Shown here: positions 1 to 33,809 of the stretch, piece after piece
Numbering within the stretch: position 1 is the stretch's first letter
Layout: each line of letters begins with the position of its first letter
DNA from: Arthrobacter sp. V1I7
GTDB taxonomy: Bacteria > Actinomycetota > Actinomycetes > Actinomycetales > Micrococcaceae
Direction: 5' to 3'
NCBI RefSeq assembly: GCF_030817015.1
Contig: NZ_JAUSYS010000001.1
Coordinates: 3,472,001 to 3,536,000, forward strand
Length of the DNA stretch: 64,000 nt
Notes under the pieces: generated by a model
Told to the model about the DNA's origin: nothing
The model's input: the letters and a program-made list of their open reading frames with translations, nothing else
The model's database searches: none
Program-made: the position numbers and the translations under genes

Positions 1-1552
1 CGCCACAGTGGAGGAGATCACCGCCGTAATTCCCGCCGCTTCGTCCCGACTCAGATCACCCCATGGAATGAGACGCAATGGGTTTCCTGCCGCCAGCCGG
101 ATACGTTCGACATCGGACGATTCGTGATCCCTCTCGCCCAGCGGCTCAACCTCCGCAATTATCAAGCGGTTGAGTTGTATCGCCCTCTCTCGCCACTGCT
201 CGCCCGTCGTACAGCCTCTAAAAAATGGTAGACCGCGACGCAGAGCGCTGACATAGTCCACGGTCTGGCCTCTCAGCCCATGGGTCTCTAGATAACCGCT
301 CGCGGCAATGTCAAGAAGCGTTTCATCACTAAGCACCACCTCCGCACCGCCGCCGGCCAGCGGCTTGATGCAGTCGTGGATAGCGAGAAGGAACGTCCCA
401 ATCGGCAACTGTGCCAAATCTGTCGGGCCAGACCCCGCGTCCCCGGCCAATCTCCTGACGAACCTCTCCACGGATTTCGCATCAGCGCCCAAACCAGCGA
501 GGAGGATTTCCCCTTCCGGCTACGGTTTCACGCCGCCACTGCCGTACGAGTTCCGCTGGACTGCGGCATTCCAAAACGGTGACGCTCTCAGCGAGCCCGT
601 CCAGCGCGACAGGTTCACCGCTGAGCGCCTTGAGAAGCGCTTCCCCCCCAGGGGCAATATCCGCAGCTCCACTCGAGCCGCCTTGAGGGGTGGTTACAGG
701 CCCGGGTACTGGCATGTCCCACTTATCGACGAAGAATCGACGCCATGTTTCGAAGGCGGGATTGGCTCCATCGTCATGCACTACGAAAATCTGGTCGACA
801 TTGGGAATGCACCGAAGTAGTTGGAACAAGGCCCACTGTGGCGGCGTGAAAAAGTAGAAACCGTGGTGGACGATCGCTCTCGTACCGCGGGCGATCCCAA
901 ACGCGGCCTCCAGAGCACGGTCAATCCGGTCACGCAAGTTGCGTGCATGACTGGTCGATTGCGTCTTAAACTCTTGAAAATCGATCCAAAGATCCGTTCG
1001 AGGCGCTGCCAGCGACGGGATCTCGTTCTCTAGCCAAGCCCACGCATCCACGGCCGCTCGGCCTAGGTCATCGCTCACGGACAGTTCTCGAGGATGAACA
1101 CCCGCAGCAGTCAGCGTATGAACGGTGCGGGAGAACTCCCGCCGAGATCTTACTAGGAGTCGTCCCATCGCAGGATCTGGAGCCATAACTCTGGCGAACC
1201 GCCTCAGTGCGTCATCAAACTGAATACCCAGCCGAAACCGGCGGCCAGTGGCTAGCTGCTGCCATTCAGAGATTTCTCGCTCATAGCTTTTGTTGCCTTC
1301 CCTCCCCAGAACGTCCGGACCGGGGAATCTTTCGAGAGGCAGCGCCATATCCGGCATCCCTGGCAGCAAGACGAGGTCCGTCAATGTCGCGATAGGCAAA
1401 CCGACGACACCCGAAGCTCGCACGCTCCTCGCAAGCGAGCCCGTTGCTGTCACATGGGAAGCGGCTTCCCAGCTGGTCCCATGCTCATTCAACATTGCAC
1501 GCAGAAACTGCTCATCAACCCGTCCGCTGGCTACAGCCTTCCATCCACCCAT
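1..1552 (-). pseudogene. AddB-like helicase/nuclease subunit, frameshifted, 3' end outside window
   Basis: The open frame from ATG 1552 (GGAGGT ribosome site, 12 bases after the helicase stop) runs to a stop at 482. Reading the minus strand on from about 510 in the next frame gives open, similar-looking protein without stops to base 1. The break falls at a CCCC run (plus strand 510-513): one G fewer would join the frames as AGREILLAGLG. The N-terminal part resembles AddB-type inactivated helicases, with HGFYFFTPPQWALFQLL followed by a strand ending IFVVHDD and later VTVLECRSPAELVRQWRRE. The C-terminal half, where AddB proteins carry a nuclease, is off the window. It is probably cotranscribed with the helicase upstream. 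The family assignment is inference from pattern; the frameshift could be a sequencing error or real decay. Confidence 0.6.
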
Positions 1553-1564
1553 TCACTACCTCCG

Positions 1565-4500
1565 CTAGATTAGAAGATCTGCCCAGGACTTGGGCTGCCC
1601 GTTTCGCGTACTCCGACGATACGGAACGTAGACCCGAAGCTGGTCTTTGGCACGCGTCAGGGCCACGTAAAGGAGCCGGGCCTCCTCACGAGCCGTTTCT
1701 AGGTCGTCTTGAGCCCAGAGGGACTGATCCTCCTCGGAGACGTTCGAGAACCTCGCCGGTCCACTTCCGCCGTTCCATTGCCAGACCACTCGAGGGAGCT
1801 CGCTGTCCCTACGTAATACGGCGACTCGCGTCGCAACGTTTTTGGGTGTCTCGAACTTCGTCCAGCTATGAGGCACTATGACGCGGTCAAACTCAAGCCC
1901 CTTGGCCTTATGGACGGTGAGAGCTGTCGTCCTGCCCTCGAGGTCGCCCCATTCAACCGGCTCGTCCTCGGCACGGTTGGTGGCTATATTCAGCTGAAGC
2001 CAGGAAAGCACTCTCTGCAAGCTGACTGGTCCGTCCTTGAAGTTTGAATCCAGAAGCGTTACCAGATGATCGAAACAGCGAACGTATCGTCTCCGCTCGG
2101 AATCATCGGTGGTCGAAGTCAACTGGGATGCCTCGGGCGCGAAGGCTCTGGCACACTCCACAATCCAAGCCATGACCGGCATGCGGCTGAGTAGCGCACC
2201 GATGGACTGGATTCGGACCCGTAGTTGCTCGAGATCCGACCTGTCGTAGGTGTCTGAGGTCGATAGGGAGCCAAGCCTGTCGTGCCACGTCTTGACCGGT
2301 GGAACGTTGACTCGCCATGAAGGATCGAATACGCCTATTGGCGGCTGCCCACGGAGAAGGCCTGCTGCCCACCTCGTCTCGCACAGCTGCAGCAGAGCTG
2401 CATCGTCCGACGGTTGCGCGACGGCCTGGAGGAGTACGTGGAGTTCTCTCACAGCTGGCGATGTAAAGAAGCTACCCCCGACAAGTAATTCGCAGGGCAA
2501 CCCTGCGGCTTGAACCTCAGATCGCACCGCAGCCGCTTGCCAGTTTCGTCGGCAGAGAATAGCGATCGACGCCTTCGGAGCCTCGCGCCTCCAGACCGCC
2601 ACGTCGACAGCCGCACGCTCCGCGAACTTGGTCACCGTAATCTGCTGGAAGGAAATCTCCTTGCTCTTGTCCGTATCTCGAATTTGAGCCCGAAGTTTCT
2701 CCGCTTCCGTATAGACCAGAAGGCCCGCCGATCCCCATCGCTCGAAGTGTGCGTGGAGCGAGTTGAGAAGGCTCGCTCCGGAGCGGAAATTGCGCGACAG
2801 AGGGTACTCGCCGAAATCATCAAGGTTTCGGGCTCTGACGCGAGAACGAAGTTCCTGGAAGGCGTTGCCTTCCGCGCCCCGAAACCTGTAGACACCCTGC
2901 TTCGCATCACCGACCGCGAACAGCCTGGCGCCAAGCAGTACTTTGATGTCCAAGATGAGCTCCATTTGAAGCGCATCAGTATCCTGGAACTCGTCGACGA
3001 AGAGGTACCGCGGCTTCATGACGCGGGGATCTTTCTGACTCCTTATAGCCGCGAGCGCGAAGGGGACGAGGTCCGAGGTGCGGATCGATTGATTCTCCAA
3101 GCAAAGTTCACGGAACCGGACAGCTATCTCGTTCACGACGAGTTGGGTTGCTCGTTGTACCTCTCCCTGCAAGCCGTCCGATCCCTCCCCACCCCAGTCA
3201 ACCCCAGGTACTTCCCCGGACTGGCCAGTGATGGGCATCAAGTCCACGCCATTATTTTCGAGGGCCGCCCAGATAGCCTCGAAATGATCCTCCCAGAGGT
3301 AGGAAGCCGGGACGCCTTGAGGGTACCTCTCAAGCAGCTTCGTGAGGTAGGGGGATAAAGCATCGTGCAGTATAGATCGAAAGGCGACGGTCTGGCGGCT
3401 AACTTTTAGCGCGGGCGACAGCCCGAGTGCGCCACCGCCCGACTGCACAATATGCTTTGCAAAGGTATGGATCGTTGTGATCTCAGCACTGCTTAGTTGC
3501 ATCATCCAAGCAAGGGCAGGGAATACGCCTCGACGGCAAAGCCGCTGCCTGAGCATCAGTGCGCGGCCAATCCTCTCCCGCATCTGTCGGGCCGCGTCGC
3601 GCGTAAAGGTCATAAGGACGATATCGTCGGCCCGAAGATCGAAAGGCATCGGGGTATCAGACTCTTGAGTATCCTCGGTGCCGCTGCACGTAGCCAGAAG
3701 GTAGATCACTCGCTCCGACATAGTTTCTGTCTTGCCTGTTCCAGCGCCTGCTGTAATTAACAAGTCGGCGTTCGCAGGAGCGTGGACGATGTTGTACTGG
3801 CCGACGTTGATCCCGCCCACTTCGTCGGCGACATCAAGGGCCCGCTTCAGGGCATTGGGAACTGGGGAGGGAAGGGCACCATCGACCACCCATGTCCCGT
3901 GTGCGTCGTCAAGGGCACTTCCGACCACGGCCCACTCAAGCAGGCGGCTGTCCTTGAACGCTTGGTACTCAATCGAGTCGAGGGATGTCTCAACTTCCGT
4001 TTGAGTAATCAAGAAGACCCGAATGCCATAGTGGAGGAGTCCGAGAAGATCATCAATCTCTACGTCATCAAGGCCTACCCGAAGGACGCTATATCGGGGA
4101 ATTATCGGGATCCCAAGAGACCGGCACAAGACATCCAGGGCCACGGCGGGATCGCCCTCGAGAACTACTGTCCCCGAGTCCGGCACAGCAAACGGCACCG
4201 ACTGTTTGCCCGGCTTTCGCTTCCTGAGTTCACGCTCGATTGGTTCAAGTCGCTTGGGCTGAAGCGCATGCTGGTCGCCTTCAATTGGAAGGAGATCAAC
4301 TGATGCCCCGGTGAGGTCAACATTAGGTCCTGAAACAATCTTCATCACAGCGGCCGGCCAGACCCAAGCGTCGACTTCGTTGCCTCCCCTGCCGAAACGC
4401 ACTCCGTTTCGCCCATGTTCTAGCAGCTCATGGACCTCTGCGCACAACCAGCGGCCAGAAGACGTGGATGTGGGTCCTTCAAACAGGATAAGCCAAACCT

Positions 4501-4828
4501 TGCACCGGGTTTCATCAGCGACCGCCAGGTAATCCTTAAACGCCGCGTACGTTGTCCAATGCACTCGTTCACCCGTCAGCGGATCAAAGTCTGTCCGCGC
4601 CCGGAATTTGATTTCCCAGTACTCGCTGCTTCCGGCCTTCGTCGTCTGCAGGTCTGGCGCTCTCCTGCGTTTGCCACCAAAGGAGATCAGGGGTGCCCTC
4701 GTACCTGATGAGTTGCCAACAGCCTCGCTCAGGTAGATGACGGCATATCGCTCAGCCAGAAGCCAGTCAGCCCACGCTATTTCGCACCGGCGCCAAGCTT
4801 GATTCTCGTCTTCGAGGGCTGATGTCAT
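1565..4828 (-). CDS. UvrD/AddA-type superfamily 1 helicase with N-terminal PD-(D/E)XK-like domain
   Basis: A 1087-aa ATP-dependent DNA helicase. Residues about 40-80 contain APDL then EYWEIK (D59, E72, K74), the D...ExK pattern of restriction-type nucleases. A Q-motif-like QYNIVHAPAN precedes Walker A TAGAGTGKT (359-367). Further motifs are TFTRDAARQM (Ia), LFVDEFQDTD (II), GDAKQGVYRFRGA (III), PLSRNFRS (IV), ALTVHKAKGLEF (V) and EEARLLYVALTRAKDQL (VI). The protein stops soon after motif VI, so it lacks the C-terminal RecB nuclease of true AddA; the N-terminal domain could replace it. The start overlaps the preceding gene by ATGA (4825-4828), implying translational coupling, and an AddB-like gene follows. 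A DNA-end-processing complex in phage defence is inferred from context. Confidence 0.85.
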   Translation of the reverse strand: MTSALEDENQAWRRCEIAWADWLLAERYAVIYLSEAVGNSSGTRAPLISFGGKRRRAPDLQTTKAGSSEYWEIKFRARTDFDPLTGERVHWTTYAAFKDYLAVADETRCKVWLILFEGPTSTSSGRWLCAEVHELLEHGRNGVRFGRGGNEVDAWVWPAAVMKIVSGPNVDLTGASVDLLPIEGDQHALQPKRLEPIERELRKRKPGKQSVPFAVPDSGTVVLEGDPAVALDVLCRSLGIPIIPRYSVLRVGLDDVEIDDLLGLLHYGIRVFLITQTEVETSLDSIEYQAFKDSRLLEWAVVGSALDDAHGTWVVDGALPSPVPNALKRALDVADEVGGINVGQYNIVHAPANADLLITAGAGTGKTETMSERVIYLLATCSGTEDTQESDTPMPFDLRADDIVLMTFTRDAARQMRERIGRALMLRQRLCRRGVFPALAWMMQLSSAEITTIHTFAKHIVQSGGGALGLSPALKVSRQTVAFRSILHDALSPYLTKLLERYPQGVPASYLWEDHFEAIWAALENNGVDLMPITGQSGEVPGVDWGGEGSDGLQGEVQRATQLVVNEIAVRFRELCLENQSIRTSDLVPFALAAIRSQKDPRVMKPRYLFVDEFQDTDALQMELILDIKVLLGARLFAVGDAKQGVYRFRGAEGNAFQELRSRVRARNLDDFGEYPLSRNFRSGASLLNSLHAHFERWGSAGLLVYTEAEKLRAQIRDTDKSKEISFQQITVTKFAERAAVDVAVWRREAPKASIAILCRRNWQAAAVRSEVQAAGLPCELLVGGSFFTSPAVRELHVLLQAVAQPSDDAALLQLCETRWAAGLLRGQPPIGVFDPSWRVNVPPVKTWHDRLGSLSTSDTYDRSDLEQLRVRIQSIGALLSRMPVMAWIVECARAFAPEASQLTSTTDDSERRRYVRCFDHLVTLLDSNFKDGPVSLQRVLSWLQLNIATNRAEDEPVEWGDLEGRTTALTVHKAKGLEFDRVIVPHSWTKFETPKNVATRVAVLRRDSELPRVVWQWNGGSGPARFSNVSEEDQSLWAQDDLETAREEARLLYVALTRAKDQLRVYVPYRRSTRNGQPKSWADLLI

Positions 4829-5427
4829 TGGTTGTCTCCAATAAGAGGCGCCACCTTAACGGCGGGCGGCGGTGGGATGATACCGTGCGCTTTCATGGCG
4901 CCTCGAAGGGCGTCCCTTTCACGGGCGATCCGTACGCGATCCTTTGCGATGGCCTCAACGGGCTTTGTCTCATTGTCTGCACTTGTCAGTCTCTTGGTCC
5001 ATTCCTGAAATACAAGGTCCTGAATTTCCTGTGGCAGCGCTGGTGTCATTCCCCATCGGGCAAGTAACTCGGCTTCCACGGTGAAGGTCGCACGAAGGGA
5101 TTCAAAGGCCCGTAGTAGCGATTCATGCTCCTCCGCGGAGACGTGGGGCGTCGGGAGGGTCGCGGCAATCGACGGCTCCTGACAGGAAACTGCTGAAACT
5201 GGCGGGACCGCGTTGGGCTTCCCAGACGATTCGCTTCGAGCTGATCTCCCAGCAGACTGGGGCGGGATCGTACCCTCTAGTCGAGACTTGAGCCGCTGGG
5301 CACGAGGATTCTTACGATGTTGAAGTTCTGCCACCAGACGCCGATGAACCTCCGAGTCGCCACTAGCGGACTTCGCCAGTTCCTCCAGTTGTTCGATCTT
5401 CATCGGGGCGTATGGCCTTACATTCAT
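4825..5427 (-). CDS. Conserved-looking 200-aa protein, first gene of the AddAB-like module
   Basis: I do not recognise a family. The protein is highly charged: residues 1-50 look helical (IEQLEELAKSASGDSEVHRR), a low-complexity Ser/Pro linker covers about 55-95, and a second helical region follows with TPALPQEIQDLVFQEWTKRL and a basic stretch RVRIARERDALRGAMKAH. It ends PPPPAVKVAPLIGDNQ. There is no signal peptide or membrane segment. Its stop overlaps the helicase start, so the two are probably made in fixed ratio; a specificity or adaptor subunit for the helicase is a guess. ATG 5427 follows GGGGAG; an in-frame ATG at 5403 is an alternative start. Confidence 0.65.
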   Translation of the reverse strand: MNVRPYAPMKIEQLEELAKSASGDSEVHRRLVAELQHRKNPRAQRLKSRLEGTIPPQSAGRSARSESSGKPNAVPPVSAVSCQEPSIAATLPTPHVSAEEHESLLRAFESLRATFTVEAELLARWGMTPALPQEIQDLVFQEWTKRLTSADNETKPVEAIAKDRVRIARERDALRGAMKAHGIIPPPPAVKVAPLIGDNQ

Positions 5428-5767
5428 GCAACTCCCCGCAGGCGGCGAAGGTCCACCTCAGATATTCGGACCACGCAGCGCCGCAATGTCCCCCCTAATA
5501 AGATACCCACCACCCTAGCAACTACGCCCTGATAATCCTGCGGATTTGCACGGGCGTCGGCTCCATGCGTGTCGTGCTGCTCCGCCCACTACGGGAGAGA
5601 ATCAGAGCCCGGGCGGACAAGCACATCACTGACCTTCGGATATCGGTGGCCGTCGCTTCTGTGCCGTTAGCCCCGCCCGGAATGAAGTCTGGGCCATCGT
5701 CCAAGACCGGTGTGCTGCAATCGAAGTGAGCTAATCGCGAAGGCGTCTTTGGTTTCAGCGCGGCTGT
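5428..5767. other. Intergenic stretch between vsr and the helicase module
   Basis: About 340 bases with no gene I can support. Both neighbours read on the minus strand, so this stretch probably holds the promoter of the 200-aa/helicase/AddB-like genes. A 60-codon minus-strand open frame at 5522-5704 has no recognisable features and is not called. Confidence 0.4.
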
Positions 5768-6199
5768 TCACCGAGGTGTTTTCTCGGAGAGCCCCCGCTT
5801 CGGGGGACCGAGAAAACTCATTAGACTTGCATCCAAGGGCGAATTTGGCGGTAGCTCGCACTCCCAAACTACGAGGACACTCCACCCCAGGGACTCCAAT
5901 TCCCGCAGCTGTCGGGCGTCGCGCTCCTGATTCTTCTCGCGCTTCAGCGCCCAAAAATCTGTGTTCGTCTTTGGTAGCCGCGAGCCAACTGAGCAGTCGT
6001 GTCCGTGCCAGAAACACCCGTTGACGAAGATGACCTTTCGACGGGCCGTGAAGACTAGGTCGGGCCGACCCGGAAGTGATCGCTCGTGAAGCCTAAACCT
6101 GTATCCGGCGCGATGCAGAAGACTGCGTAGTCGGACCTCCGGCTTCGTATTCTTGGAGCGGATCTTGGCCATATGAGCGCTCCGTTGCTCCGTGTTCAT
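5768..6199 (-). CDS. vsr: Very short patch repair endonuclease (Vsr)
   Basis: A mismatch endonuclease that nicks 5' of the T in T:G mismatches left by deamination of 5-methylcytosine, limiting the mutational cost of the neighbouring C5 methyltransferase. The sequence MNTEQRSAHMAKIRSKNTKPE opens the family, followed by GYRFRLHERSLPGRPDLVF and VIFVNGCFWHGHDC with the catalytic Asp and the His/Cys metal-site residues. A C-terminal WALKREKNQERD and a conserved LGWSVLVVWECEL finish the fold. Starting at ATG 6199 gives 143 aa, normal for Vsr; the open frame extends 48 codons further upstream but that part is not Vsr-like. It diverges from the restriction gene across about 210 bases. Confidence 0.93.
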   Translation of the reverse strand: MNTEQRSAHMAKIRSKNTKPEVRLRSLLHRAGYRFRLHERSLPGRPDLVFTARRKVIFVNGCFWHGHDCSVGSRLPKTNTDFWALKREKNQERDARQLRELESLGWSVLVVWECELPPNSPLDASLMSFLGPPKRGLSEKTPR

Positions 6200-6342
6200 G
6201 AAATCCGCCACATGATCAATCCTAGAACCCAATCGCCTTCGCCGACTGATCAAAGTCTTTTCAGACACATAGAGCGTCGTCGACAGATCCCACGTCCACG
6301 GTGTGGTCTTGCTGGTCCGGCACGAGACAGGGTTCCCTATCA

Positions 6343-6375
6343 AGTTAACCTATATAGTTTGTGACCGAGATAGTC
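6343..6375 (+). promoter_or_regulatory. Candidate promoter for the restriction endonuclease gene
   Basis: An AT-rich island in the divergent vsr/restriction-gene spacer. It contains TTAACCTATATAGTTTG, with TATAGT as a plausible -10 and a partly symmetrical AACCTATATAGTT. No C-protein gene is present nearby, so controller-type regulation is not suggested. Pattern only. Confidence 0.3.
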
Positions 6376-6409
6376 AGTGCTGAGCATTATCCGGGGAAAG
6401 GGATACGAA

Positions 6410-7609
6410 ATGAGAGAATTATCGGATCTTGAGCGTCTCAATGTCGAATTATTAGTGAGATTGGATGTACCATTCGGACTGCTAGAGCAGACAGAAACGA
6501 CTCTTGAAAAGGCTTATTCGGATGCTACGCAAGAGTTTCGTGAGTTCTTAGTTTCCACGGGCATTCACGACTACGCCAAGCGAGGCCAAGGTCAAGAAGC
6601 AAAGATCATTCGCATGGCAACGATTATGGAGAATGGCGCGTTTCTGAGGTCAGAAGTTGCCATGTACAGGCCCTGCACCAAAAAAGGTGACCCACGGTTT
6701 CGGATTTCACATATTAAGAAAATCTGCATGTCTGGTGATATAGCTGCAGTGCTATATCTAGATGACGAACTCTTTGTGCTTCGACTCGGTGAATCGGATA
6801 TTGAAGCTGAATTGGAACGTCCAGGGGCGCTCCAAGACGTTCTGGGCGGGATAGCGAGAAATAGACTCTCGGCGTCGCAGGAGTTGCTTCAGATGATTCT
6901 TGATCTGGCGGAGCGCGGTTTCATCAAGACCCACAGGGCCGGCGACACGGCAGTAGGGCATCTTCTAGAGACAGAATTGGGTATTTCGGCCAACTCCAGC
7001 AAAGCACCCGACTACAAGGGAATCGAGATTAAGTCCACGAGGGCAAGAGTGCAGAATCGGCACACGATGTTCGCCAAAGTGCCTGACTGGCATCGGAGCA
7101 CGCTGTCGAGTACGGCGGAATTCCTCGAGCTTTTTGGCTACGACCGACGGGGATTTCCTGAACTGAACTGCGAAGTCGGCGCCAAACGAGCCAATTCTCA
7201 AGGTTTGAGACTGCGAGTCTCCGCGGACGAAACGGTACTCGAAGAATTCTGCGAAAGGCAGCACTCAGCGTTCCGATTGCGCTGGACTCTGGAGTCGCTG
7301 CGGACTGCACTAAAACGAAAACACGCCGAAACATTCTGGGTAAAAGCAACGTCCGAGCTGAGGCATGACGGAGAGTACGTGCGCTTCGACTCGATCGTCC
7401 ATACGAGCAAACCTGTGCTCAATCAAGTCGTACCGCTTCTAGCATCAGGAGCCATCACTGTCGATCACCTCATCTCAAAGAAACCGGGAAAAGGTGTCAA
7501 AGAACAAGGCCCACTGTTCAAGATTGCGGATCGTGAATTCGACGCACTCTTTCCACTCATTGAGGTCTATCAGCTAAGTCAAGGATTCGTTGGGCGATCT
7601 CGACGTTAG
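6410..7609 (+). CDS. MvaI/BcnI-family type II restriction endonuclease
   Basis: A 399-aa predicted restriction enzyme. The catalytic region at about 178-211 reads GDTAVGHLLETELGI then APDYKGIEIKSTR, giving D201, E206 and K208 of a PD-(D/E)XK site; this arrangement is characteristic of the MvaI/BcnI family, whose characterised members cut CCWGG or CCSGG. Residues 43-130 form a separate N-terminal domain (FREFL, HDY, MYRPCTKKGDPRF, LYLDDELFVLRL) that resembles the N-terminus of the nuclease at 9464-10378. ATG 6410 is chosen because a GGGGAAAGGG site lies 8 bases upstream; GTG 6377 would add 11 residues without such a site. It converges on the methyltransferase across a hairpin. Base composition is noticeably AT-richer than the flanking chromosome. 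Confidence 0.88.
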   Translation: MRELSDLERLNVELLVRLDVPFGLLEQTETTLEKAYSDATQEFREFLVSTGIHDYAKRGQGQEAKIIRMATIMENGAFLRSEVAMYRPCTKKGDPRFRISHIKKICMSGDIAAVLYLDDELFVLRLGESDIEAELERPGALQDVLGGIARNRLSASQELLQMILDLAERGFIKTHRAGDTAVGHLLETELGISANSSKAPDYKGIEIKSTRARVQNRHTMFAKVPDWHRSTLSSTAEFLELFGYDRRGFPELNCEVGAKRANSQGLRLRVSADETVLEEFCERQHSAFRLRWTLESLRTALKRKHAETFWVKATSELRHDGEYVRFDSIVHTSKPVLNQVVPLLASGAITVDHLISKKPGKGVKEQGPLFKIADREFDALFPLIEVYQLSQGFVGRSRR

Positions 7610-7617
7610 AGATAGAT

Positions 7618-7655
7618 AAGTCCGGCGCCGAGCATGTCTGTTCGGCGCCGGACTT
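7618..7655. terminator. Bidirectional hairpin between convergent restriction and methylase genes
   Basis: A perfect 14-bp stem AAGTCCGGCGCCGA / TCGGCGCCGGACTT with a 10-base loop sits just past the restriction gene stop and before the convergent methyltransferase stop. There is no strong T tract, but position and stem strength fit a two-way terminator. Confidence 0.8.
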
Positions 7656-7708
7656 CGCCTGACCGCTCTCATTCAAAGCTTGAACCAGACTTCCGGCACA
7701 GCTCAACA

Positions 7709-9082
7709 CTACGAACCGTTTAACACCTTAGAGACCATCTTCCCGACAGCGAGGGATAGCCAAGGGGATACTGCGTTGCCCACTTGCGAGTATTGGGGCA
7801 CTTCCACCCGCCGTCTGTGTGCCCCCGTCGTCTCTTTGCCCAGGAATTCGAATGCTGCCGGGAAACCTTGGAAGCGTGCCATCTCCCTTACTGTGAAAAT
7901 ACGCGGCTCCAGTGGATGGACATAGTCGTCCGGCAATGTCACTACTGTTCTCGCAGGACTCTTCCAACCCAGGACTTTCTGGGAATGCTTTTTTGTGGCG
8001 AGACTGATAACCAATTGGCAAAGCTCATCCAGCGTGGATGCCAGAACATTGCCGTCTGGAGATGTAGCTGGCATCTCGGCGTCCAACAGTTGCGTCTTCA
8101 CGTAGAGCATCGCATCCGACTCTGGCAAGGACGCAGCACGACTCACCACTCGTTGATCAAGCCCGGCACCCGCTAAGTACTGATAGAGGCGAAACCGTTC
8201 GACCGTCCGCGCCGCATGTTTACGAGGCACGTGATTCTGTTCGTCTCGTCTTGCCTTCAGCCGAAGCTTCCAGCCCACGTCACGCATTTCCTTGACATAC
8301 TCGCGGTTTCGCGGCCGGCTTACTTTGCTGGCGTGGGGTGAGAGGTCGGATATGGCATCCTCGACCGTACGAACACTTGAGCGCTCTACGGTTGGTACCG
8401 GTGCCAGATCGGGCAAAGGAAGGGTCATGACATCAGCGAAGTCCGACTTCCACAACACGCCGGTAGACCGAAGGCCCCGCCCCTTGGCTACGTCTGCTCG
8501 GACACCGATGATCATTAGACGTGGCCGGTGTTGAGGCGCACCGTAATGCATGGCATTCACTAACACCCCCTGAACAACGTACCCCGGTTCAGTCTCTGCC
8601 AGAGCTTGCTGCAATTGGACGAACGAGGACTCTTCATCGGGCGTGAAGCGCTGGTTCATCCCGACGACATTCTCGATGACAACTGCCTTGGGCTTGGTCC
8701 GGGCAACGAACTCCAGATACTCCCAGGGTAGCTTGTTCCGGACATCGTCCCGGTTGCGGCGGCCAGCAAGCGAAAATCCTTGGCAAGGGGGTCCTCCAAC
8801 GACTAGGTCGATTCCTTCTGCCGCCAAACCGGACATTATGTCGTCCTCCGCCAGCAGCGAGTTCAGCTCGCGTACCAGCACGCCTCTCTTGACCTGATCA
8901 GCCACCGGGCTGGCGACGTACTGCAGCCACTCCTGCATGTCCGATGCGTCATCGACCAGATTGTGGAAGAACGTCCTCGCCGCCATGTCGGATTTTTCAA
9001 CGGCGACTACCAGTTCCCCTCCCGCTCTCTCAATGCCCAGAGAGAGTCCACCGCACCCGGCGAAGAGATCAACGTATTTCAT
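7709..9082 (-). CDS. DNA (cytosine-5-)-methyltransferase
   Basis: Transfers methyl from S-adenosylmethionine to C5 of cytosine, protecting host DNA from the partner endonuclease. From ATG 9082 the protein opens MKYVDLFAGCGGLSLG (motif I), then GGPPCQGFSLAGRR (motif IV with catalytic Cys), VVIENVVGM (VI), QHRPRLMIIGVR (VIII), SPARTVVTLPDDY (IX) and SQVGNAVSPWLSLAVGK (X). The order is that of canonical m5C enzymes, 457 aa. The open frame begins 34 codons earlier, but the family starts at motif I, so 9082 is preferred. Together with Vsr and the MvaI/BcnI-like nuclease it forms a complete type II system, probably recognising a CCNGG-type site (inference from family). Confidence 0.93.
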   Translation of the reverse strand: MKYVDLFAGCGGLSLGIERAGGELVVAVEKSDMAARTFFHNLVDDASDMQEWLQYVASPVADQVKRGVLVRELNSLLAEDDIMSGLAAEGIDLVVGGPPCQGFSLAGRRNRDDVRNKLPWEYLEFVARTKPKAVVIENVVGMNQRFTPDEESSFVQLQQALAETEPGYVVQGVLVNAMHYGAPQHRPRLMIIGVRADVAKGRGLRSTGVLWKSDFADVMTLPLPDLAPVPTVERSSVRTVEDAISDLSPHASKVSRPRNREYVKEMRDVGWKLRLKARRDEQNHVPRKHAARTVERFRLYQYLAGAGLDQRVVSRAASLPESDAMLYVKTQLLDAEMPATSPDGNVLASTLDELCQLVISLATKKHSQKVLGWKSPARTVVTLPDDYVHPLEPRIFTVREMARFQGFPAAFEFLGKETTGAHRRRVEVPQYSQVGNAVSPWLSLAVGKMVSKVLNGS

Positions 9083-9463
9083 CACTGCCCTATTCTGTCT
9101 GATTCTCGGATGATTTTCCAGGACCAATTTTCCCGCGGAGATCCCATACCGGAACCATATTGCCGAGCACTGACAGAACTTCATCTGCTGGTGTGGCCGT
9201 CTACCCCTGGGCGGCGTCGGTCATGCTCTCCCGGCCGCGGCCAGTCGGCAGTTCATTGTTTCACAGACCCCGACCGCCACGCGCGCGACGAGCTCGACCG
9301 AGTGGCGAAGTATCCCGTCCGACGTAGAGGTTAGTTCTAGAACGAGCGGCTCAAGGGCTACATTTGCCGCACAGCACACTGATGTGTGGCCGGGCCACCG
9401 GAGTTCACACAGGTGCGTCGTCAAGCTTCATTTCCTCAGCGGGACGATCAGATCAAGCCGTTC
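9083..9463. other. Intergenic stretch upstream of the methyltransferase
   Basis: About 380 bases without a supportable gene. A 67-codon minus-strand open frame (9221-9424) shows no family signal. The stretch must carry the methyltransferase promoter, but no clear -35/-10 pair is visible. Confidence 0.4.
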
Positions 9464-10378
9464 TCAGTGGCAATCGTTGATCCAGCCCAATCGACCCTCG
9501 GTCTTCCAGACAGCAGCAATTCCCAGCTCCTCCAGCAGGCCGACGAAACCATCCCCGACTGGTTCGTTGAACAGGGCCATTAGACGGGGACGATTTTGCT
9601 TCTCGTACAGGAAGTGCGAGTACTCCGAGAGTTGGCCAATTGCGGCCCGCACAGCTTGGGTCGCGTTTCCCTCATACACGACTTTTGCTTCGACTAGCCA
9701 ATCATCCTTGCCTACCCTGAGCGTGAGGTCACGCGGATGGACACTTGTGTTCGATGGCCTATGCCCACGAGGGGTCACATGCGACGCATATTCGGTCAGG
9801 AGAAGCTCATGCCGGTCTCCTCTTCGACGCGAAGTCCTTGCGGCAACTTGGACGATGTACTCTTGGCGGTCCTTTGGTTTGAAGTGAACCGGGACATCCT
9901 CATACTCCGTTCGCCTCCCCGGCTGTGCCGGCTGCCCAGTTTCAATCCCGTTGTTCGGTGCTGGGATGATCCGTGTGATCCAGGGCAGACGTCCGAAATC
10001 CTCTTGCGATGCATTCAGTAGACACAAATGATCGTCGTTCCAGAGGCACACAAGCACTTCACCGGCCGACACATAGTTTCTCACTCGGGGAAACCATATT
10101 CTGGGGTCTCCTCTGGACTCAGCACGATAAAGCGACGCGTCTGGGAGCTCCACGACGCCGGAACGCAGGATGAACTGAACGGGCAAGCGCCGCTTACCGC
10201 CGTCACCATATTTCTGAGTATCGTAGTCGTGGACGAGCTGCCGCAAAAGGAATTTTCTGAATCCCTCTACAGCGTCGATGATGCTGTTATCCAAACCATT
10301 CTGAGTTGGATAAAGCAGCGCGTAGTCGATTTTACACCTGGCGAGATACTCAATGTTCTGTTCTTCACGTAAATCCAT
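9464..10378 (-). CDS. PD-(D/E)XK nuclease sharing an N-terminal domain with the neighbouring restriction enzyme
   Basis: A 304-aa putative restriction nuclease. Residues about 36-127 (GFRKFL, VHDY, SLYRAESRGDPRIWFPRVRN, CLWNDDHLCLLN) parallel residues 43-130 of the MvaI/BcnI-like enzyme. The C-terminal half has RHELLLTEYASH, then PRDLTLRVGKDDWLVEAKVV (D217, E230, K232) and AAIGQLSEYSHF (Q249), the D...ExK...Q arrangement of Mrr/McrB-associated and similar nucleases. It lies immediately upstream of the methyltransferase on the same strand but with a 380-base gap. Possible roles are a second enzyme of the same modification system or a modification-dependent nuclease; I cannot decide. The start abuts the transposon scar, so the upstream promoter may have been replaced. 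Confidence 0.7.
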   Translation of the reverse strand: MDLREEQNIEYLARCKIDYALLYPTQNGLDNSIIDAVEGFRKFLLRQLVHDYDTQKYGDGGKRRLPVQFILRSGVVELPDASLYRAESRGDPRIWFPRVRNYVSAGEVLVCLWNDDHLCLLNASQEDFGRLPWITRIIPAPNNGIETGQPAQPGRRTEYEDVPVHFKPKDRQEYIVQVAARTSRRRGDRHELLLTEYASHVTPRGHRPSNTSVHPRDLTLRVGKDDWLVEAKVVYEGNATQAVRAAIGQLSEYSHFLYEKQNRPRLMALFNEPVGDGFVGLLEELGIAAVWKTEGRLGWINDCH

Positions 10379-10634
10379 TTAGACGGCCCCAGCCTCGTTC
10401 GCCATATGACTTCGAACCGAAAGGATACCGCGAAATCCAAAGCACCAGACGCTGGATTCGATAGTGTCGCCAACGCGGCTTGGCAGCCGAACGCAGGGCG
10501 GTACTGGCCCCAATTCGTTCTCCAAGATATTGATGGCCCGTCGGTGCCCCACTGGTCTTGGATCCTCGCGGTGATGAGTCATTCCACCGGCGAGAAAACT
10601 GTCGATGAGGCCAACTTGGTGGAAGTAGCCAGTC
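10379..10634. other. Unassigned DNA between nuclease gene and permease fragment
   Basis: Open in both directions (plus 10406-10648; minus continuous with the chimeric frame above the IS remnant) but with no recognisable protein in either. It probably belongs to the rearranged block that joins the nuclease start to the permease and transposase fragments. Confidence 0.35.
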
Positions 10635-10850
10635 GGGCCTGGCGCTGATCTTCGCCTACTGCCTGGCGCCGTTCTACTGGATGCTGGTCTCCAGCCTTCG
10701 CCGCACCGCCGACATCTTCGACATCTTCGACAACACCCTGCTGCCGGCGCCGTTCTCGCTGGAACTACGCCAAGGTGTTCGACGGCTCCACGATGTTCGG
10801 CCAGGCCCTGCTGAACTCCCTGATCGTCGCCGGCACCACCACCACGTTTC
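10635..10850 (+). pseudogene. Fragment of a sugar ABC transporter permease (copy of part of 23797-24010)
   Basis: These 216 bases are closely similar to an internal part of the intact second permease gene: the encoded FAYCLAPFYWMLVSSLRR and TADIF segments are recognisable. The copy differs by scattered substitutions, a 9-base tandem duplication (GACATCTTC twice), a 2-base loss in the LENY codons, and a further indel at its end, so it cannot encode the transporter. It joins the truncated transposase directly at about 10851. An acquired or duplicated scrap at an island junction is the likely explanation. Confidence 0.85.
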
Positions 10851-11400
10851 GCCGGCCAGCAGCCACTGCGTGGAGTCAATCTGCCAGCATCCGTTGGGTT
10901 CCGGATAGACGAATTTGTTAGGCGCTGCGGTGTTTTTTCCTCGGTTCCGGGACCACGACTCCGGCCCGGGTAAAGATCCGGGCCAAGGTGGCACGTGATG
11001 GAGGCGGGACCCCCCTGGCGTCGCAGTTTGGCCGCGACGCTCAGGGGTCCGTGGTCATAGCCGAGGCTCCTTAGCGACTCCCGGGTCGCGAGAGCCAGCT
11101 GCGCCAATGAGGCATCGATCTGTGCCGGGCTGGCCGCTGGCCTGATAGAGGCCGTTTCCATGGCTTTGACCGGCCCCACGGCGGCTGCTGCGGCCCGAAG
11201 CTTGTAAAACCAGGCCCGGGACACCTTATGACGCCGGCAGTGCTGTTTAACCGCACCCCTCTCGGCGTCGTCAGGCCATGTCGCCACCAAGTGCCGGATC
11301 TTGATATCGGGGTGCATTTTTGCTCATGAACCGAGCAAAACCGGTCCGAGTGTCCACGATGTCTTGAGACAGAAACGTCCATTAAGTCATGAGACTCCAC
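10851..11400 (-). mobile_element. Truncated IS481-family transposase and element end
   Basis: The minus strand encodes a transposase N-terminus starting MHPDIKIRHLVATWPDD, with the helix-turn-helix HCRRHKVSRAWFYKLRA and LGYDHGPLSVAAKLRR, typical of IS481/IS3-like elements. After a frame change the next part reads FVYPEPNGCWQIDSTQWLL, containing the first Asp of the DDE site, and then stops abruptly at the permease fragment. The rest of the catalytic domain is missing here. Upstream (11330-11400) is the element's leader region. The remnant cannot transpose; it probably mediated or recorded assembly of the island edge. Confidence 0.8.
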
Positions 11401-11424
11401 AGCTACCAAAACCAGCTCAGAAGG

Positions 11425-11448
11425 ACCAAAGGTGATAGCGCAACGGGA
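11425..11448. repeat. 24-bp repeat, copy 1 (second copy at 47641-47664)
   Basis: The 24 bases beginning ACCAAAGGTGATAGCGCAAC recur identically at 47641-47664, where the inner 15 bases form half of an inverted repeat. Probably a mobile-element terminus. Confidence 0.7.
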
Positions 11449-11482
11449 CCACGTCGCCGCGACTTGAAACACATGCATTTTG

Positions 11483-12178
11483 TCAGGCCAGCAACTTGAG
11501 GGGAGGACGTCGCTCTGCGGAGAGCCCGGATCGTTCGGGCTCAGGCCAATGGGGGAAGTCGTCAGGTTCTCCCCCGAAGGCGAGGACGGTCTGAGCGGCA
11601 AGGTCGCAGCATGCCTGAATAAAGCCCTCAGCCCCCATGAGGCGCATCGAGTGCTTCCCGCTGACAAGAGGCCAAAGCGCGCCAGAGTCGTTCGACACCA
11701 ACTGCGGGTCTCCGCCGTGGCTCAGGATGTTGCGGAGATTCTTCATGTCAGCGAGGTACACCTGCAGCTCCTGCGTCCCGCTATAGACCCTCCATCTGGA
11801 CCGATTCCCAGCCGCGCCGGGAGTTCTCGTGCGAACGCCCCAATCCTTTGTGAAAAGCCGGACGCCTGCCTGCTGCCCCGCTTGCCGGAGTCTGTCTGGA
11901 TTCAACGGCAAGTGCCTCGTCTGCGAAGGGTCAAACGAGAGCGAGTCATTGAAGAAAGCTTCGATGGCCGCATACGTCATCGTGAAAATTCCGAAACGAA
12001 GCGCGTACTGCTTCGATGAGCGTCCGAGCGGTTCCCCGTCCTTCCCCTTCAGCTTTTCGATGTCGCGGTGAAGGCTCACGAGCAGAGAAGGGTTGACGAG
12101 ACCTTCCGCGAGAGAGTTCGCGGCTTGGATGACGGCCGGTAGGTGAGAATGTGCAGGCATGTGTCGGATCGTATGCAT
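11483..12178 (-). CDS. HEPN-like protein
   Basis: A 231-aa soluble protein from ATG 12178 (an ATG six codons later is also possible). Two features recall HEPN ribonuclease/toxin domains: an N-terminal helix YAAIEAFFNDSL and LRNILSHGG, which supplies the R-N-x3-H (R149, H154) signature in the R-x(4-6)-H class. The long open frame upstream of this start is Arg/Ser-rich and not domain-like. It lies on the same strand as, and 233 bases after, the Lamassu-like ATPase gene, so it may be an accessory RNase of that system or an independent abortive-infection protein. The assignment rests on motif spacing only. Confidence 0.6.
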   Translation of the reverse strand: MHTIRHMPAHSHLPAVIQAANSLAEGLVNPSLLVSLHRDIEKLKGKDGEPLGRSSKQYALRFGIFTMTYAAIEAFFNDSLSFDPSQTRHLPLNPDRLRQAGQQAGVRLFTKDWGVRTRTPGAAGNRSRWRVYSGTQELQVYLADMKNLRNILSHGGDPQLVSNDSGALWPLVSGKHSMRLMGAEGFIQACCDLAAQTVLAFGGEPDDFPHWPEPERSGLSAERRPPLKLLA

Positions 12179-12411
12179 GTTTTGCCTGCAGGTGCACGAT
12201 GTAAGCCGCGGCCCGCGATAGGCGTGTCTTCCGCATGAGACTGACAATGAGAGCAGGAACAGCTGTAAGCAAGCACGAAATTGCCGCCATGCCGCCCCAG
12301 GAAGTCGCGGCCAAATTAGGGGAAATTGTTGACGCAGACGTGCTGCCGCAAACGAAGGTGTACCGCGCATCTCTACCCCTCCGGGTAGCGGCGGCTGTCA
12401 GGATGCGCCCC

Positions 12412-14553
12412 TCAGATGGCTCGACGGAGCAACCGAACCGGGTCCTCAAGTATCTGTCCATCGACGTCGCGCTCATCGACGGTGGGGCCGCTGCGATCCC
12501 ACCCCGTAAACCTGATGATCTTCGTTCGGGCTCCTTCGGCACGGGGCGCCAGCTTTCGTTCGAGTAACCCTGAAAGCCGCCGCTCATGTGTAGACACTAT
12601 GAGCTGTCGGCGCACTCTGAGGTGCCGACACAGGTCAGCAAACCCGAGCACATTCACGTCATCCATCGACTGCACTGGGTCATCCAGCAGTAGGAATGGC
12701 AGTCCTGTGCCCTCCATCGACAGGCTCATCGCGATGAAGTACGACAGGGCGACAATGTTTGCTTGCGAGGTCGAAAAGATCAAGAGAGGGTCGGCCGAGA
12801 TGCCCGCCACGTGATCAACGACCAGGGGACTCGTAGTCCCCCTGCGATAGTAAGTGTCCAGTTCGAACTCAACAGTCTTGAATGCAGGATGGGGGTCGAG
12901 ACGGTGGAATATGTCCGCGACCAACGGTTGGATCGAACGCAGCCGTCTTTCAGTGACTTCCACTCGGGCCTCAAGCGTCTTTGCGGCGAGTACTCGGAGC
13001 CTCTTGGCACGAGCAGTTTCCGTGGCCAGCTGCGCCTCTGCAGTGGAAACCGCCGCCTCCAAACTCATGCGTTCTGCATCGGCACGCTCTCTTGCGCTTT
13101 GGTCGCTCTGACGATCGAAGGCCTCCAAGAAGTCAAGCAGGATCCGACGTGCGCCACGCAAATACTCCGCTACTGAAACAGCGACTGAACCAAAAGATTC
13201 CGCGGTGAATTGATCAAGCCTCACGAGAGAAATGTCCGAAGCGAGAGCGGCGACGGCGTTGGCAGCTGCCCTATCTGCGGCTCTGTATATCCGCCAGCGC
13301 TCCGCTTGCTGCTCCGTTTCGGTCAGCGCTTCCGAAGCCTCGGAGGCTGCAGTTGCTGCCTCCGAGAAGTCGTTGGCCCGCTCGACGAATTCGTTTTCCA
13401 ACTCGAGCAGGGTTCCGCCTGAACGCGCCCGCAGAATCAGTTCACGTTCCACATGCTCACGGTCGATGCCCTGGCGACAGACTGGGCAGTTATCCGACAG
13501 CATCGGTACGGCAAGCGCTGCCAACTTAGCCACATCAGCAGCCGTCAGCCTCGCAGCGTTCAGCTGTGATTGCGCCGCCGCTCGTGAGGCTTCGGCCGCG
13601 GCTTTGGTCGCCTTCGCCTGTTCGACATCAGCACGGAGAGCATCGATCTCGTCAGTGCCAGGAGCCTCCCCCAAGCCTTCGCGCAGCTCAGACGCACGGC
13701 GAACGAGAGCGTAAGCAGCATCCACAAGTTCAACCGCACGGCCGAACGCCCTCGCTGTGACACTAACATCATTCGGCAGTTCTAGATTCAGGTCAGCCTC
13801 ACTGAAGAGCACACCTTCGGGCGTTGCACGTAGCTTCTCAAGAACTTCGTTGCGCACGGCTTCTATTTGGGGGCGACTGGCCAACCGCGCTTGAGCTGTC
13901 TCGAGTCGGTCCTGAGATTGGTTCAGGGCAACGGAGAGCCGGGAGAGCTCACTCCGGACGAGCTCCACACGGTCGGAAGCTTGCGTCACGACATTCTTCG
14001 TCGCGTCCTCAAAGACCTCCAGGGCGCCAAGACCGAGCACTGTACTGAGCTGCCGGTACCGCTCAGTCGGCTTGGCTTCCAGCACGCTCCGCAGCACGTC
14101 TTGCTGCATCAGACCGGAAGTGGTTAGCGCCGAATGTAATGATAGTTCGTTACGGGGCAATAGGATTCGCCGCAGCTCCACCTCGGCTTCTTCGCCAAAT
14201 AGCGAGGCTTCGCCCAGTCGGCTAAGTTCGAGGGTGCTTCCGCCTTGATCGCCCGTACGTCGCACGGTCGCGTGCCCTGTCGGCAGACTAAGGTCAATCT
14301 CGACCGAAGCCTTTCGCCCTATGCGATATTGATTGACGACATGCTCCACGTTGCGCCGCGAGCGAAGTGCTTCAAGTCGTTCGATTCTGCCGAGCAAAAC
14401 CCACTGCAATGCGTCGAAGAAGCTAGTCTTGCCAGTGCCGTTCGGGCCGGTGACGACAACTGCTGATGCTGAGAGATCGAACTCTCGGGCATCACGAAAA
14501 CCGCGAAACGCTTCAATTCGCAATCGGTCAATGCTGGGATTAAAGGACGTCAT
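12412..14553 (-). CDS. lmuB: Lamassu-type LmuB: SMC/Rad50-like ABC ATPase with zinc hook
   Basis: A 713-aa DNA-sensing type ATPase. Walker A GPNGTGKT is at 36-43 after IEAFRGFRD, typical of RecF/Rad50-like ABC enzymes. Long coiled coils flank a CPVC zinc hook at 356-359. The C-terminal lobe has STSQANIVALSYFIAM in the signature position, Walker B FLLLDDPVQSMDD, and a switch histidine in LIVSTHERRLSGLLERKL. In Lamassu/ABC three-component systems such an ATPase senses foreign or replicating DNA and releases the effector. ATG 14553 is chosen because the fold starts here; it overlaps the middle-component gene by 14 bases. Confidence 0.85.
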   Translation of the reverse strand: MTSFNPSIDRLRIEAFRGFRDAREFDLSASAVVVTGPNGTGKTSFFDALQWVLLGRIERLEALRSRRNVEHVVNQYRIGRKASVEIDLSLPTGHATVRRTGDQGGSTLELSRLGEASLFGEEAEVELRRILLPRNELSLHSALTTSGLMQQDVLRSVLEAKPTERYRQLSTVLGLGALEVFEDATKNVVTQASDRVELVRSELSRLSVALNQSQDRLETAQARLASRPQIEAVRNEVLEKLRATPEGVLFSEADLNLELPNDVSVTARAFGRAVELVDAAYALVRRASELREGLGEAPGTDEIDALRADVEQAKATKAAAEASRAAAQSQLNAARLTAADVAKLAALAVPMLSDNCPVCRQGIDREHVERELILRARSGGTLLELENEFVERANDFSEAATAASEASEALTETEQQAERWRIYRAADRAAANAVAALASDISLVRLDQFTAESFGSVAVSVAEYLRGARRILLDFLEAFDRQSDQSARERADAERMSLEAAVSTAEAQLATETARAKRLRVLAAKTLEARVEVTERRLRSIQPLVADIFHRLDPHPAFKTVEFELDTYYRRGTTSPLVVDHVAGISADPLLIFSTSQANIVALSYFIAMSLSMEGTGLPFLLLDDPVQSMDDVNVLGFADLCRHLRVRRQLIVSTHERRLSGLLERKLAPRAEGARTKIIRFTGWDRSGPTVDERDVDGQILEDPVRLLRRAI

Positions 14554-15106
14554 CAAGAGGTGCTCCCTGTCTGAAAGCGGTAACAGCACGCCCCGCAAGC
14601 TCCTCGGCAACACCGTTTGCGATGAGTGCGTGTAGAAGCAAATCGAGTGCGTCCACATGTGCGACCGGGGTTGTAGGGGTCATCGGCACAATGAAAGGCG
14701 CTAAAGCATGTCTCACCGCTTGTGGCGTCGGGTCGACCCCGGTGTGCGCTATGCGACGCACACGTGACGTGTCGTGATTTATGGCGTAGAGGTCACGAGT
14801 GACGGCGTCATCCTCAGCGGACTTCTCCTGCGTGAGCAAGACGAGGTACGTATCCCATTTTTTCGCCCCAAGTGAGACAGACTCGATGCGTTGTGAGAGA
14901 GCCTCGAGGACAACGGGCTCAGCCAGTACCAGGTTGCTTATGGTGTTCATTGCGACCACCGCAACAATTGAGTAGCGGTTCTCCGCAAGGATGAACTCAA
15001 TATTTTCTGCCATAGTCTCAACCTGAAACCCCTGCTCGGACAACACAGTTTTGGTGAGACTGAGCAGTTCGTCGTCGGACCGCCAAGTCAATGGTGTGGT
15101 CTTCAC
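14540..15106 (-). CDS. lmuC: Lamassu-type middle component (LmuC-like)
   Basis: A 188-aa protein between the SIR2 effector and the ABC ATPase, the position of LmuC, the middle component of ABC three-component systems. It has an N-terminal alpha/beta region (LTKTVLSEQGFQVETMAENI, then IVAVVAMNTISNLVLAEPV, LVLLTQEKS) and a helical C-terminus ending RQGAPLDDVL. The identification rests mainly on size and gene order. It starts at GTG 15106 overlapping the SIR2 stop (GTGA) and overlaps the ATPase gene at its end, so all three are translationally coupled. Confidence 0.7.
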   Translation of the reverse strand: MKTTPLTWRSDDELLSLTKTVLSEQGFQVETMAENIEFILAENRYSIVAVVAMNTISNLVLAEPVVLEALSQRIESVSLGAKKWDTYLVLLTQEKSAEDDAVTRDLYAINHDTSRVRRIAHTGVDPTPQAVRHALAPFIVPMTPTTPVAHVDALDLLLHALIANGVAEELAGRAVTAFRQGAPLDDVL

Positions 15107-16440: not shown

Positions 16441-16698
16441 GCCCGCAAGTCTAATGGCAACGCCTAGCAGCAAACCGGGAGGTGCGCGCGCCTGCTCGCG
16501 TCTCTGCACTTACATGTCCAACTGACGCCTAGGATACGAACGAAACTATATGGCGAACGGACTGCCCATCTTCTGTTGACTCTCGCCAAAACGAGGCAGG
16601 GGCACCCGCCCAAGGTTTACGGCTACTTCTTGCCTTGGCCGGCAGACGTTATTCGTGACGGAACTCCACGCCGTTCCGCAGTTGACTAACCTCCGGGG

Positions 16699-18000: not shown

Positions 18001-18322
18001 CGCTTACTCCTCTGTGGTTGCACCCCTCCGGGAGGTGTGAACGCGACTGATAGGTGAGAATCCGCCAGTGCCGCCCTGGATCTATGGCGATTGTATTCAT
18101 GGATCCAGACCTGATGGGTCGCGGCGCGTTCAAACTCCTCGACTAAGTGACTCCCGCCTCCCAAACGAAGACCGGCCCTGACCCTAACAAAGTAGGCGGC
18201 CCGTCGTCTTGCGGCTGAGGTCTTCACCAATCCGCGCGGCACGTGGCCCTCAGTCCCGACAGGATCGATGCCGGCGCCAGGGGAACCTTCGTGGCCTACT
18301 GCGTGCTGCCCGGCTGGCGCGA
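18001..18322. other. Intergenic stretch with a possible IS481 integrase C-terminal remnant
   Basis: No intact gene. On the minus strand at about 18050-18170 the reading FERAATHQVWIHEYNRHRS resembles the C-terminal end of IS481/IS3 integrases (WIxxYNxHRxHxAL). If correct it would be another decayed piece of the element type seen at 10851-11400. Weak evidence. Confidence 0.3.
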
Positions 18323-18369
18323 AAAAGGAGGCCGACGACGACACCCAGTGTCGCCGTCGGCCTCCTTTT
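18323..18369. terminator. Strong rho-independent terminator
   Basis: A stem of 22 positions with a single mismatch, core GGAGGCCGACG / CGTCGGCCTCC, a 3-base loop and runs of A on one side and TTTT on the other, so it can act on both strands. It follows the GSYVT-repeat gene on the minus strand. Confidence 0.88.
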
Positions 18370-18409
18370 ATGCCCCCGCGGTGGTGCTATCCCCGCAGGG
18401 CGCCGGACC

Positions 18410-18697: not shown

Positions 18698-18966
18698 GGG
18701 TTCTCCGTGGGGTTTCGGGATGAGGGACGTACAGGTCCTTGTGCCGCTCAAGCAGGAGGGCGGTTGCGCGTTGTGTCGCTTGCCCCGCTGGCCCGGGTGT
18801 CTTCACCGGTGCGGTACTCAAGGGCTACGTCGGCCTGCACCTAACTTTACCGGCTTATCGTGAGTTACTCATAATAAGGTGGGAAGGCTCACGTTTTACG
18901 CAAGGCATCTACGGACTACTCCGAATGGCGCCGGCGCCATAGAAACGCACAGGTCCGTCACCTAAC

Positions 18967-33781: not shown

Positions 33782-33809
33782 TTCCCGACGGCGGAAGCTT
33801 GTGTCTATT

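Follow-up and report, generated by a model that had tools for sequence, protein, structure and literature searches.

RecBCD and AddAB are usually seen as enzymes of chromosomal repair with a side role in finishing off restricted DNA. The locus described here raises the question of whether an enzyme of this kind can also belong to a restriction-modification (RM) system. It lies at the left end of a 64,000-nt stretch of the Arthrobacter sp. V1I7 genome (the whole stretch is called the window below) and reads, on the minus strand, SMALL, HEL and an AddB-like gene, HEL being a large helicase and SMALL a protein of 200 amino acids (aa). The initial annotation had regarded the three genes as one AddAB-like module without a match to a named defence system, and had offered it as a candidate undescribed anti-phage or DNA-end-processing complex. 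According to our analysis the conserved unit is better described as a two-gene HEL-AddB core that is real and uncommon and is tied to cytosine-5 (m5C) restriction. We think it rather probable that the two products form an AddAB-type heterodimer that serves m5C RM systems as an accessory, degrading DNA after the restriction cut.

The motor protein and its AddB-like partner

The assignment of HEL as a UvrD/AddA-type helicase was borne out. The protein carries UvrD-type helicase domains, Pfam and NCBIfam give only helicase or ATPase models for it, and AddA ranks first when it is compared to the sequences of solved structures. PADLOC is equally generic, with GajB or RTasHel helicase models among the matches listed (25 of 49). 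The predicted structure of HEL (mean predicted local distance difference test score, pLDDT, 90.3) has AddA and RecB as its best Foldseek matches. By Z, monomeric PcrA/UvrD/Rep chains score slightly higher (up to 24.6, versus 22.1 for RecB and 22.0 for AddA), which speaks against an AddA-type motor, but RecB and AddA align over more of the protein than these chains do (675 residues for 4ceh_A). The structural match stops at AddA residue 921, therefore no C-terminal nuclease is seen on HEL; Pfam, NCBIfam and the structure alignment found none, in agreement with the initial annotation.

Relative to the AddA match, residues 1-243 of HEL are extra. The three residues previously pointed out in this part, D59, E72 and K74, are at the exact positions given; they and the residues P58 and R76 show no variation in any of the 106 aligned HEL sequences, while E16 is identical in 102 of them and the remaining 4 are gapped there. 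In the model a helix (11-25) is followed by strands between residues 47 and 76, a strand (88-93), a helix (94-107) and a further strand (110-117); D59 is placed just ahead of a strand and E72 and K74 within it, an order that fits the PD-(D/E)XK core. The N-terminal domain of HEL thus modelled seems to be a PD-(D/E)XK nuclease, which, compared to AddA, would move the cutting domain to the other terminus of the motor protein. This prediction rests on motif and topology because the domain matched no family and its four matches among PDB sequences were weak and unrelated (best E 0.18). Both results count against it, and so does the use of the whole protein in the fold comparison, by which the N-terminal domain was barely probed. 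Moreover, a distant relative of HEL from Geobacillus is without the first ~240 residues, nuclease-like motif included, and the N-terminal domain is therefore itself a variable part.

The AddB-like identity of the gene that follows HEL gained support at the level of the fold. Detection by sequence alone failed and fold comparison was needed: for the close relative P0143, AddB (4cei_B) comes first both by Foldseek and by Z (19.1). The partner subunit is accordingly modelled with an AddB/RecC-like fold in which the helicase is dead; a Walker A motif is present in 1 of 105 aligned AddB-like sequences. Four cysteines are invariant in all 105, with a spacing that resembles that of the iron-sulphur cysteines of AddB, and by this analogy they probably bind an iron-sulphur cluster as a Fe-S clasp. 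Some 130 residues separate the first cysteine from the second, modelled as helices with no strand. No conserved catalytic nuclease set was found in the C-terminus among the same aligned sequences, and PF12705 was matched by 1 of 23 AddB-like members, at E 0.23.

A few points count against an intact, nuclease-less subunit. The distant Exiguobacterium AddB-like protein has a weak PF12705 match (E 0.011, covering the last 27 positions only) and carries the annotation "PD-(D/E)XK nuclease family protein". In the host the gene begins at 1552 but does not end within 1..5427, the range given in the initial annotation: its frame breaks near 482-492, resumes in another frame and runs beyond the window edge to about G000:C1:3470774 (G000 denotes the host genome). 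A copy in another record (P0142), identical over the matched part, is read in one frame, and the relatives listed, mostly 905-960 aa long, are likewise single-frame. The break in the host gene therefore reflects either an error of sequencing or a mutation that disables the gene.

Conservation of the pair and its restriction-modification neighbours

Twelve loci were compared: the host genome, G205, G527, L010-L016, and two Bacillota plasmids from Geobacillus (L020) and Exiguobacterium (L029, reached via L020). L010-L016 came from a scan of genome contigs with two peptide patterns (7 loci from 24 matching stretches; L013 and L027 are one contig, counted once). HEL immediately precedes AddB in 12 of 12 loci, an adjacency that is conditional on AddB, the loci having been found via the AddB-like protein; nor are the loci fully independent, two being of one genus (the host and G205) and three from Nocardioides/Marmoricola. 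Viewed in reverse, from HEL, 24 of the best 31 HEL contigs pair by exact size with an AddB contig. The HEL (116) and AddB (120) match lists have 32 contigs of equal size in common, as opposed to 0 or 1 when the sizes are shifted, and the pairing is therefore not due to chance.

Beyond the host lineage the pair occurs in other Actinobacteria, in an Acidimicrobiaceae and a Phycisphaera metagenome-assembled genome (MAG) and in the two Bacillota plasmids. Co-occurrence outside the lineage, which the initial annotation had set out for all three families, thus held for HEL-AddB, but SMALL is often absent and the three-gene module did not hold up as a unit. The pair is rare: it was found in 2 of 206 host-genus genomes, in 1 of 395, 3 of 347 and 2 of 394 genomes of the family, order and class samples, and in 1 of 186 genomes of G731's family (these samples overlap, and the host belongs to each of them except the last). 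Among viral contigs 0 relatives were found in 23 pattern matches, and phage records gave none. The plasmid search returned one distant record and, via the protein of that record, a second, more distant one; for the search with the Geobacillus helicase the best 15 of 444 records were considered and the Exiguobacterium record was followed. The G+C content at third codon positions (GC3) is 0.53-0.69 for the pair, the RM genes and other genes of the island, as against 0.84-0.95 for four chromosomal genes on the right, and 0.75 for one on the left; AdnA and AdnB of the host, with a helicase gene neighbouring them, have 0.85. This atypical composition suggests that the island was acquired from elsewhere.

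The most constant companion of the pair observed is an m5C methyltransferase, which points to a restriction accessory; all 11 genomes or records scanned have one. In 10 of 10 non-plasmid loci (that is, loci from genome assemblies, some of them draft or MAG contigs) the pair has a PF00145 methyltransferase at a distance of 0.27-8.0 kb, although the respective genomes contain only one to three PF00145 genes. On the 35-kb plasmid L020, which is outside this 8-kb count, the methyltransferase is 10.2 kb away and the gene for Vsr (very short patch repair) 7.5 kb. Vsr lies within 6.1 kb of the pair in 8 of 10 non-plasmid loci; the assemblies of the other two, L014 and L016, gave no Vsr match and are both MAGs that may be incomplete. 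As Vsr is found in 199 of 204 host-genus genomes, and twice in the host, its presence alone says little and it is the copy beside the pair that counts. The recognised restriction enzymes vary: MvaI/BcnI (window and G205), Sau3AI (L014), AlwI (Geobacillus plasmid), a type IV/II-model match (L013) and a type IIG-like enzyme (L011). A helper that goes with such differing specificities would be expected to come into play once the DNA is cut, and to work on its ends.

The chance of finding the methyltransferase so close is an estimated 0.2-1.6% per locus, but this value takes the genome as uniform and the observed distances as thresholds. Several observations also weaken the linkage. Among the scanned neighbours in L010, L012, L015, L016 and G527 no restriction enzyme could be made out, and over the 20.6 kb of the Exiguobacterium plasmid that were displayed no methyltransferase is annotated. 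Nor is the methyltransferase the sole recurrent neighbour, since DrmD-like SNF2 helicases adjoin or lie near the pair in four loci (L011, L012, L015 and L016); in L011 and L015 the helicase gene follows AddB immediately downstream, and in L016 it adjoins SMALL. Finally, defence genes cluster in general. Other genes around these loci include a PglX/type IIG-like methyltransferase (L011) and a NERD+UvrD-like helicase (L012), which are DISARM- or ARMADA-like neighbours; no family was assigned to a 1103-aa protein of L014, to relatives in L010 and L012, or to a 259-aa protein of G527.

The gene upstream of HEL differs between loci. The ATGA overlap of SMALL and HEL reported for the window was confirmed, but by profile search SMALL is present in 4 of 11 loci (window, G205, L014 and L016), always just upstream of HEL. 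A divergent sigma-70-like gene occupies the upstream side of HEL in 6 of the 7 loci that are without SMALL (L010, L011, L012, L013, L015 and G527). It was found in none of the four SMALL loci, and the seventh, the Geobacillus plasmid, has neither gene; L029 was inside the sigma scan and outside those for SMALL, methyltransferase and Vsr. From this pattern of presence and absence we infer that SMALL and the sigma factor may be alternative control modules. The sigma-70-like genes of L010 and L011, both scanned with PADLOC, match the sigma part of MzaA; a literature search on sigma control returned no paper. SMALL could not be placed by the initial annotation nor by us: its sole Pfam hit is CATASP, at 14.5 bits (cut-off 29; E 0.034), PADLOC and NCBIfam gave no match, and the comparison with PDB gave nothing of note (best E 0.11). 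Among 24 members the best Pfam values were 0.0045 for CATASP (2 members) and 0.0004 for KfrA_N (4 members), a weak hint from sequence that SMALL might bind DNA.

Layout of the locus and surrounding genes

The coordinates are collected in the table below. A Vsr endonuclease, an MvaI/BcnI-type endonuclease and an m5C methyltransferase stand directly beside the module, as initially described; this RM set and a 304-aa protein adjoin the SMALL side. On the other side, the next open reading frame (ORF) listed downstream of the operon encodes 157 aa.

Table. Features of the HEL-AddB locus and the adjoining RM genes in the window
Feature	Position	Strand	Remarks
SMALL	4825..5427	-	200 aa; ATGA overlap with HEL; fold not recognised; conserved C-terminal block and short N-terminal block
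HEL	1565..4828	-	1087 aa; AddA/RecB-like superfamily 1 (SF1) helicase; N-terminal nuclease-like domain; no C-terminal nuclease found
HEL N-terminal PD-(D/E)XK-like domain	4319..4828	-	residues ~1-170; E16, P58-D59, E72-x-K74; predicted helix-strands-helix-strand order
HEL helicase core	1592..3802	-	residues ~343-1079
AddB-like subunit, N-terminal piece	482..1552	-	356 aa, up to the frame break
AddB-like subunit, C-terminal piece	1..492	-	another frame; runs past the window to ~G000:C1:3470774 (L007:13774-15492, 572 aa); holds the four cysteines
Vsr endonuclease	5768..6343	-	second copy elsewhere in the genome
MvaI/BcnI-family restriction endonuclease	6377..7609	+	additional N-terminal stretch
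Cytosine-5 DNA methyltransferase (Dcm-like)	7709..9184	-	
304-aa protein	9464..10378	-	weakly similar to the MvaI/BcnI-type ORF; no family matched

The 304-aa protein is weakly similar to the MvaI/BcnI-type ORF (48 bits) and reaches 88 bits with its G205 counterpart; judging from this similarity it may be another restriction-type protein, belonging to the RM set. Further along the window, a 748-aa SMC-like ATPase (12412-14658, minus strand) matches LmuB models of PADLOC (E 2.3e-48) and lies ~445 bases from a 468-aa SIR2-like protein (PF13289; 15103-16509, minus strand); the two may together make up a Lamassu-like system whose effector is of the SIR2 type. In the region extending left of the window (L007), a 1088-aa ResIII/DEAD helicase with a PDC-S71 match (7893-11159, minus strand) and a GmrSD-type protein with a HEC-05 match (11258-13012, plus strand; E 6.5e-206) stand beside the AddB-like gene as further defence candidates. 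Two transposase-like ORFs, both judged by eye, flank the defence genes: one resembles a broken IS3-type transposase (10379-11317, minus strand), the other an IS30-type transposase (L007 3488-5272, minus strand). No tRNA was found in L007, and Rfam gave no match in positions 1-20000 of the window. Elsewhere in the window, two near-alike diacylglycerol-kinase-like proteins, named by eye, are encoded ~14 kb apart on the plus strand (18967-19929 and 32825-33781) and are seemingly duplicated. One long peptide stretch is common to the plus-strand frames 33160-34494 and 39563-40456, as if part of the antisense gene 39476-40945 had been repeated near 34 kb.

Known systems, competing explanations and proposed role

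It is instructive to compare the pair to AddAB (3u4q, 3u44, 4ceh, 4cei, 4cej). Both consist of an AddA-like active SF1 motor and an AddB/RecC-like dead-helicase subunit encoded by adjacent genes, and the four cysteines of the AddB-like protein are spaced as in the iron-sulphur set of AddB. However, both AddAB subunits bear a C-terminal nuclease, whereas none was found on HEL or the AddB-like protein; AddAB has no match on its motor for the N-terminal PD-(D/E)XK-like domain of HEL, all but one of the 105 AddB-like sequences are devoid of a Walker A motif, and HEL-AddB is rare and RM-linked. Because the two C-terminal nucleases of AddAB are missing, we file HEL-AddB as a variant of AddAB rather than a member. 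The closest precedent that we found in print is a UvrD-Cas4 fusion in Dcm/Vsr loci, for which the available part of the source (PMC5704561) predicts a defence role, in genomes with another RecB. The fusion described there shares the SF1 helicase plus nuclease plan and the Dcm/Vsr context with HEL, but carries a pfam12705 Cas4-like domain; HEL has no PF12705 match and membership was rejected on this ground. The same part of the source mentions no AddB-like partner, and an unlabelled AddB-like neighbour may exist in those loci.

Other candidates fit less well. RecBCD was rejected as the operon has no RecD-sized or RecD-like gene. In Gabija, GajB is a UvrD-like helicase whose PADLOC models match HEL generically, but HEL has roughly double the length of GajB and comes with an AddB-like partner, and no GajA-type gene lies beside it, its neighbours being SMALL and the AddB-like gene; Gabija was therefore rejected. 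So was Mza, of which the MzaA sigma part resembles the divergent gene of L010 and L011, the complete mzaABCDE set not being found. Among the matches listed, HEL-AddB is not named as a system by PADLOC (2023 version), Pfam or NCBIfam, as the initial annotation had stated, and a literature search aimed at such a module found no named system of that make-up, with the proviso that a paper may have been missed.

That HEL-AddB is simply the housekeeping AddAB or AdnAB of the genome is suggested by the likeness of the folds. AdnAB is likewise an SF1 helicase-nuclease heterodimer, but the host has its own: AdnA and AdnB are encoded side by side elsewhere in the genome, with solved AdnAB chains as their best PDB matches (E 1.8e-99 and 4.5e-171). 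This refutes the housekeeping reading, which, with the pair in only 2 of 206 host-genus genomes, host included, we give practically no chance; the complex is a separate one, as initially proposed. Two other host helicases were labelled UvrD2 and PcrA by eye. An unlikely but more serious alternative is that the pair protects the host, processing the breaks or Vsr nicks left in host DNA by the RM/Vsr set, for example when methylation lags. The closeness of Vsr in most non-plasmid loci and the fold, which is that of a recombinational repair enzyme, would agree with this, as would a Vsr-dependent DNA-damage response in Caulobacter cells without cytosine methyltransferase, reported in the available part of PMC12907096. 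Yet the host already has AdnAB, nearly all genomes of the genus have Vsr while the pair is rare among them, and L014 and L016 have the pair with no Vsr match, a point tempered by the possible incompleteness of these MAGs.

The free-standing anti-phage complex initially put forward was not supported as written. The pair might still work alone as an anti-phage system, or within a larger DISARM/ARMADA-like cluster, and be no more than a neighbour of RM genes in defence islands; GmrSD/HEC-05-like, LmuB-like and SIR2-like genes do occur in the same region, DrmD-like helicases lie near the pair in four loci, and the Exiguobacterium plasmid has no annotated methyltransferase nearby. We regard this as improbable, because no other neighbour observed is as constant as the methyltransferase, which lies within 8 kb in all ten non-plasmid loci, and no DrmD-like protein was among the matches listed by PADLOC for the window proteins scanned. 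HsdR has the nuclease first and then the motor, and its motor is of the superfamily 2 (SF2) type. The order of domains in HEL recalls this arrangement, so that the pair might be the restriction motor itself and take its specificity from the methyltransferase, which is present in every genome or record scanned, several of the loci being without a recognised restriction enzyme. Since separate restriction endonucleases are recognisable in other loci, and the HEL motor is of the AddA/UvrD SF1 type, we consider this very improbable.

We therefore return to the reading of HEL-AddB as an accessory of m5C RM systems. The restriction endonuclease would cut unmethylated incoming DNA, and the heterodimer, whose formation we infer, would load on the cut ends. 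HEL would unwind the DNA with its single active motor, while the AddB-like subunit, with its dead helicase fold, probable Fe-S clasp and no nuclease, would bind and split the DNA as RecC and AddB do. The N-terminal domain of HEL would cut the unwound strands, so that the cut DNA is destroyed beyond repair, presumably to the disadvantage of phages. SMALL in one subtype, and the divergent sigma-70-like factor in the other, might govern expression or assembly. We offer more tentatively, as a possibility that we do not favour outright, that such loci constitute a distinct RM-accessory class: a mobile AddAB-type machine with an N-terminal motor nuclease and a nuclease-less iron-sulphur AddB, coupled to m5C systems of differing specificities, occurring in two regulatory forms (SMALL or sigma-70-like) and turning a single cut into processive destruction.

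If this is true, a restriction system can bring along a degradation machine of its own, which possibly evades the phage inhibitors of the host enzyme. The pair would also be a natural rearrangement of AddAB, with the nuclease at the other end, the AddB catalytic site lost and the cysteines kept, and as such may serve to probe what an iron-sulphur domain does when it is free of a nuclease.

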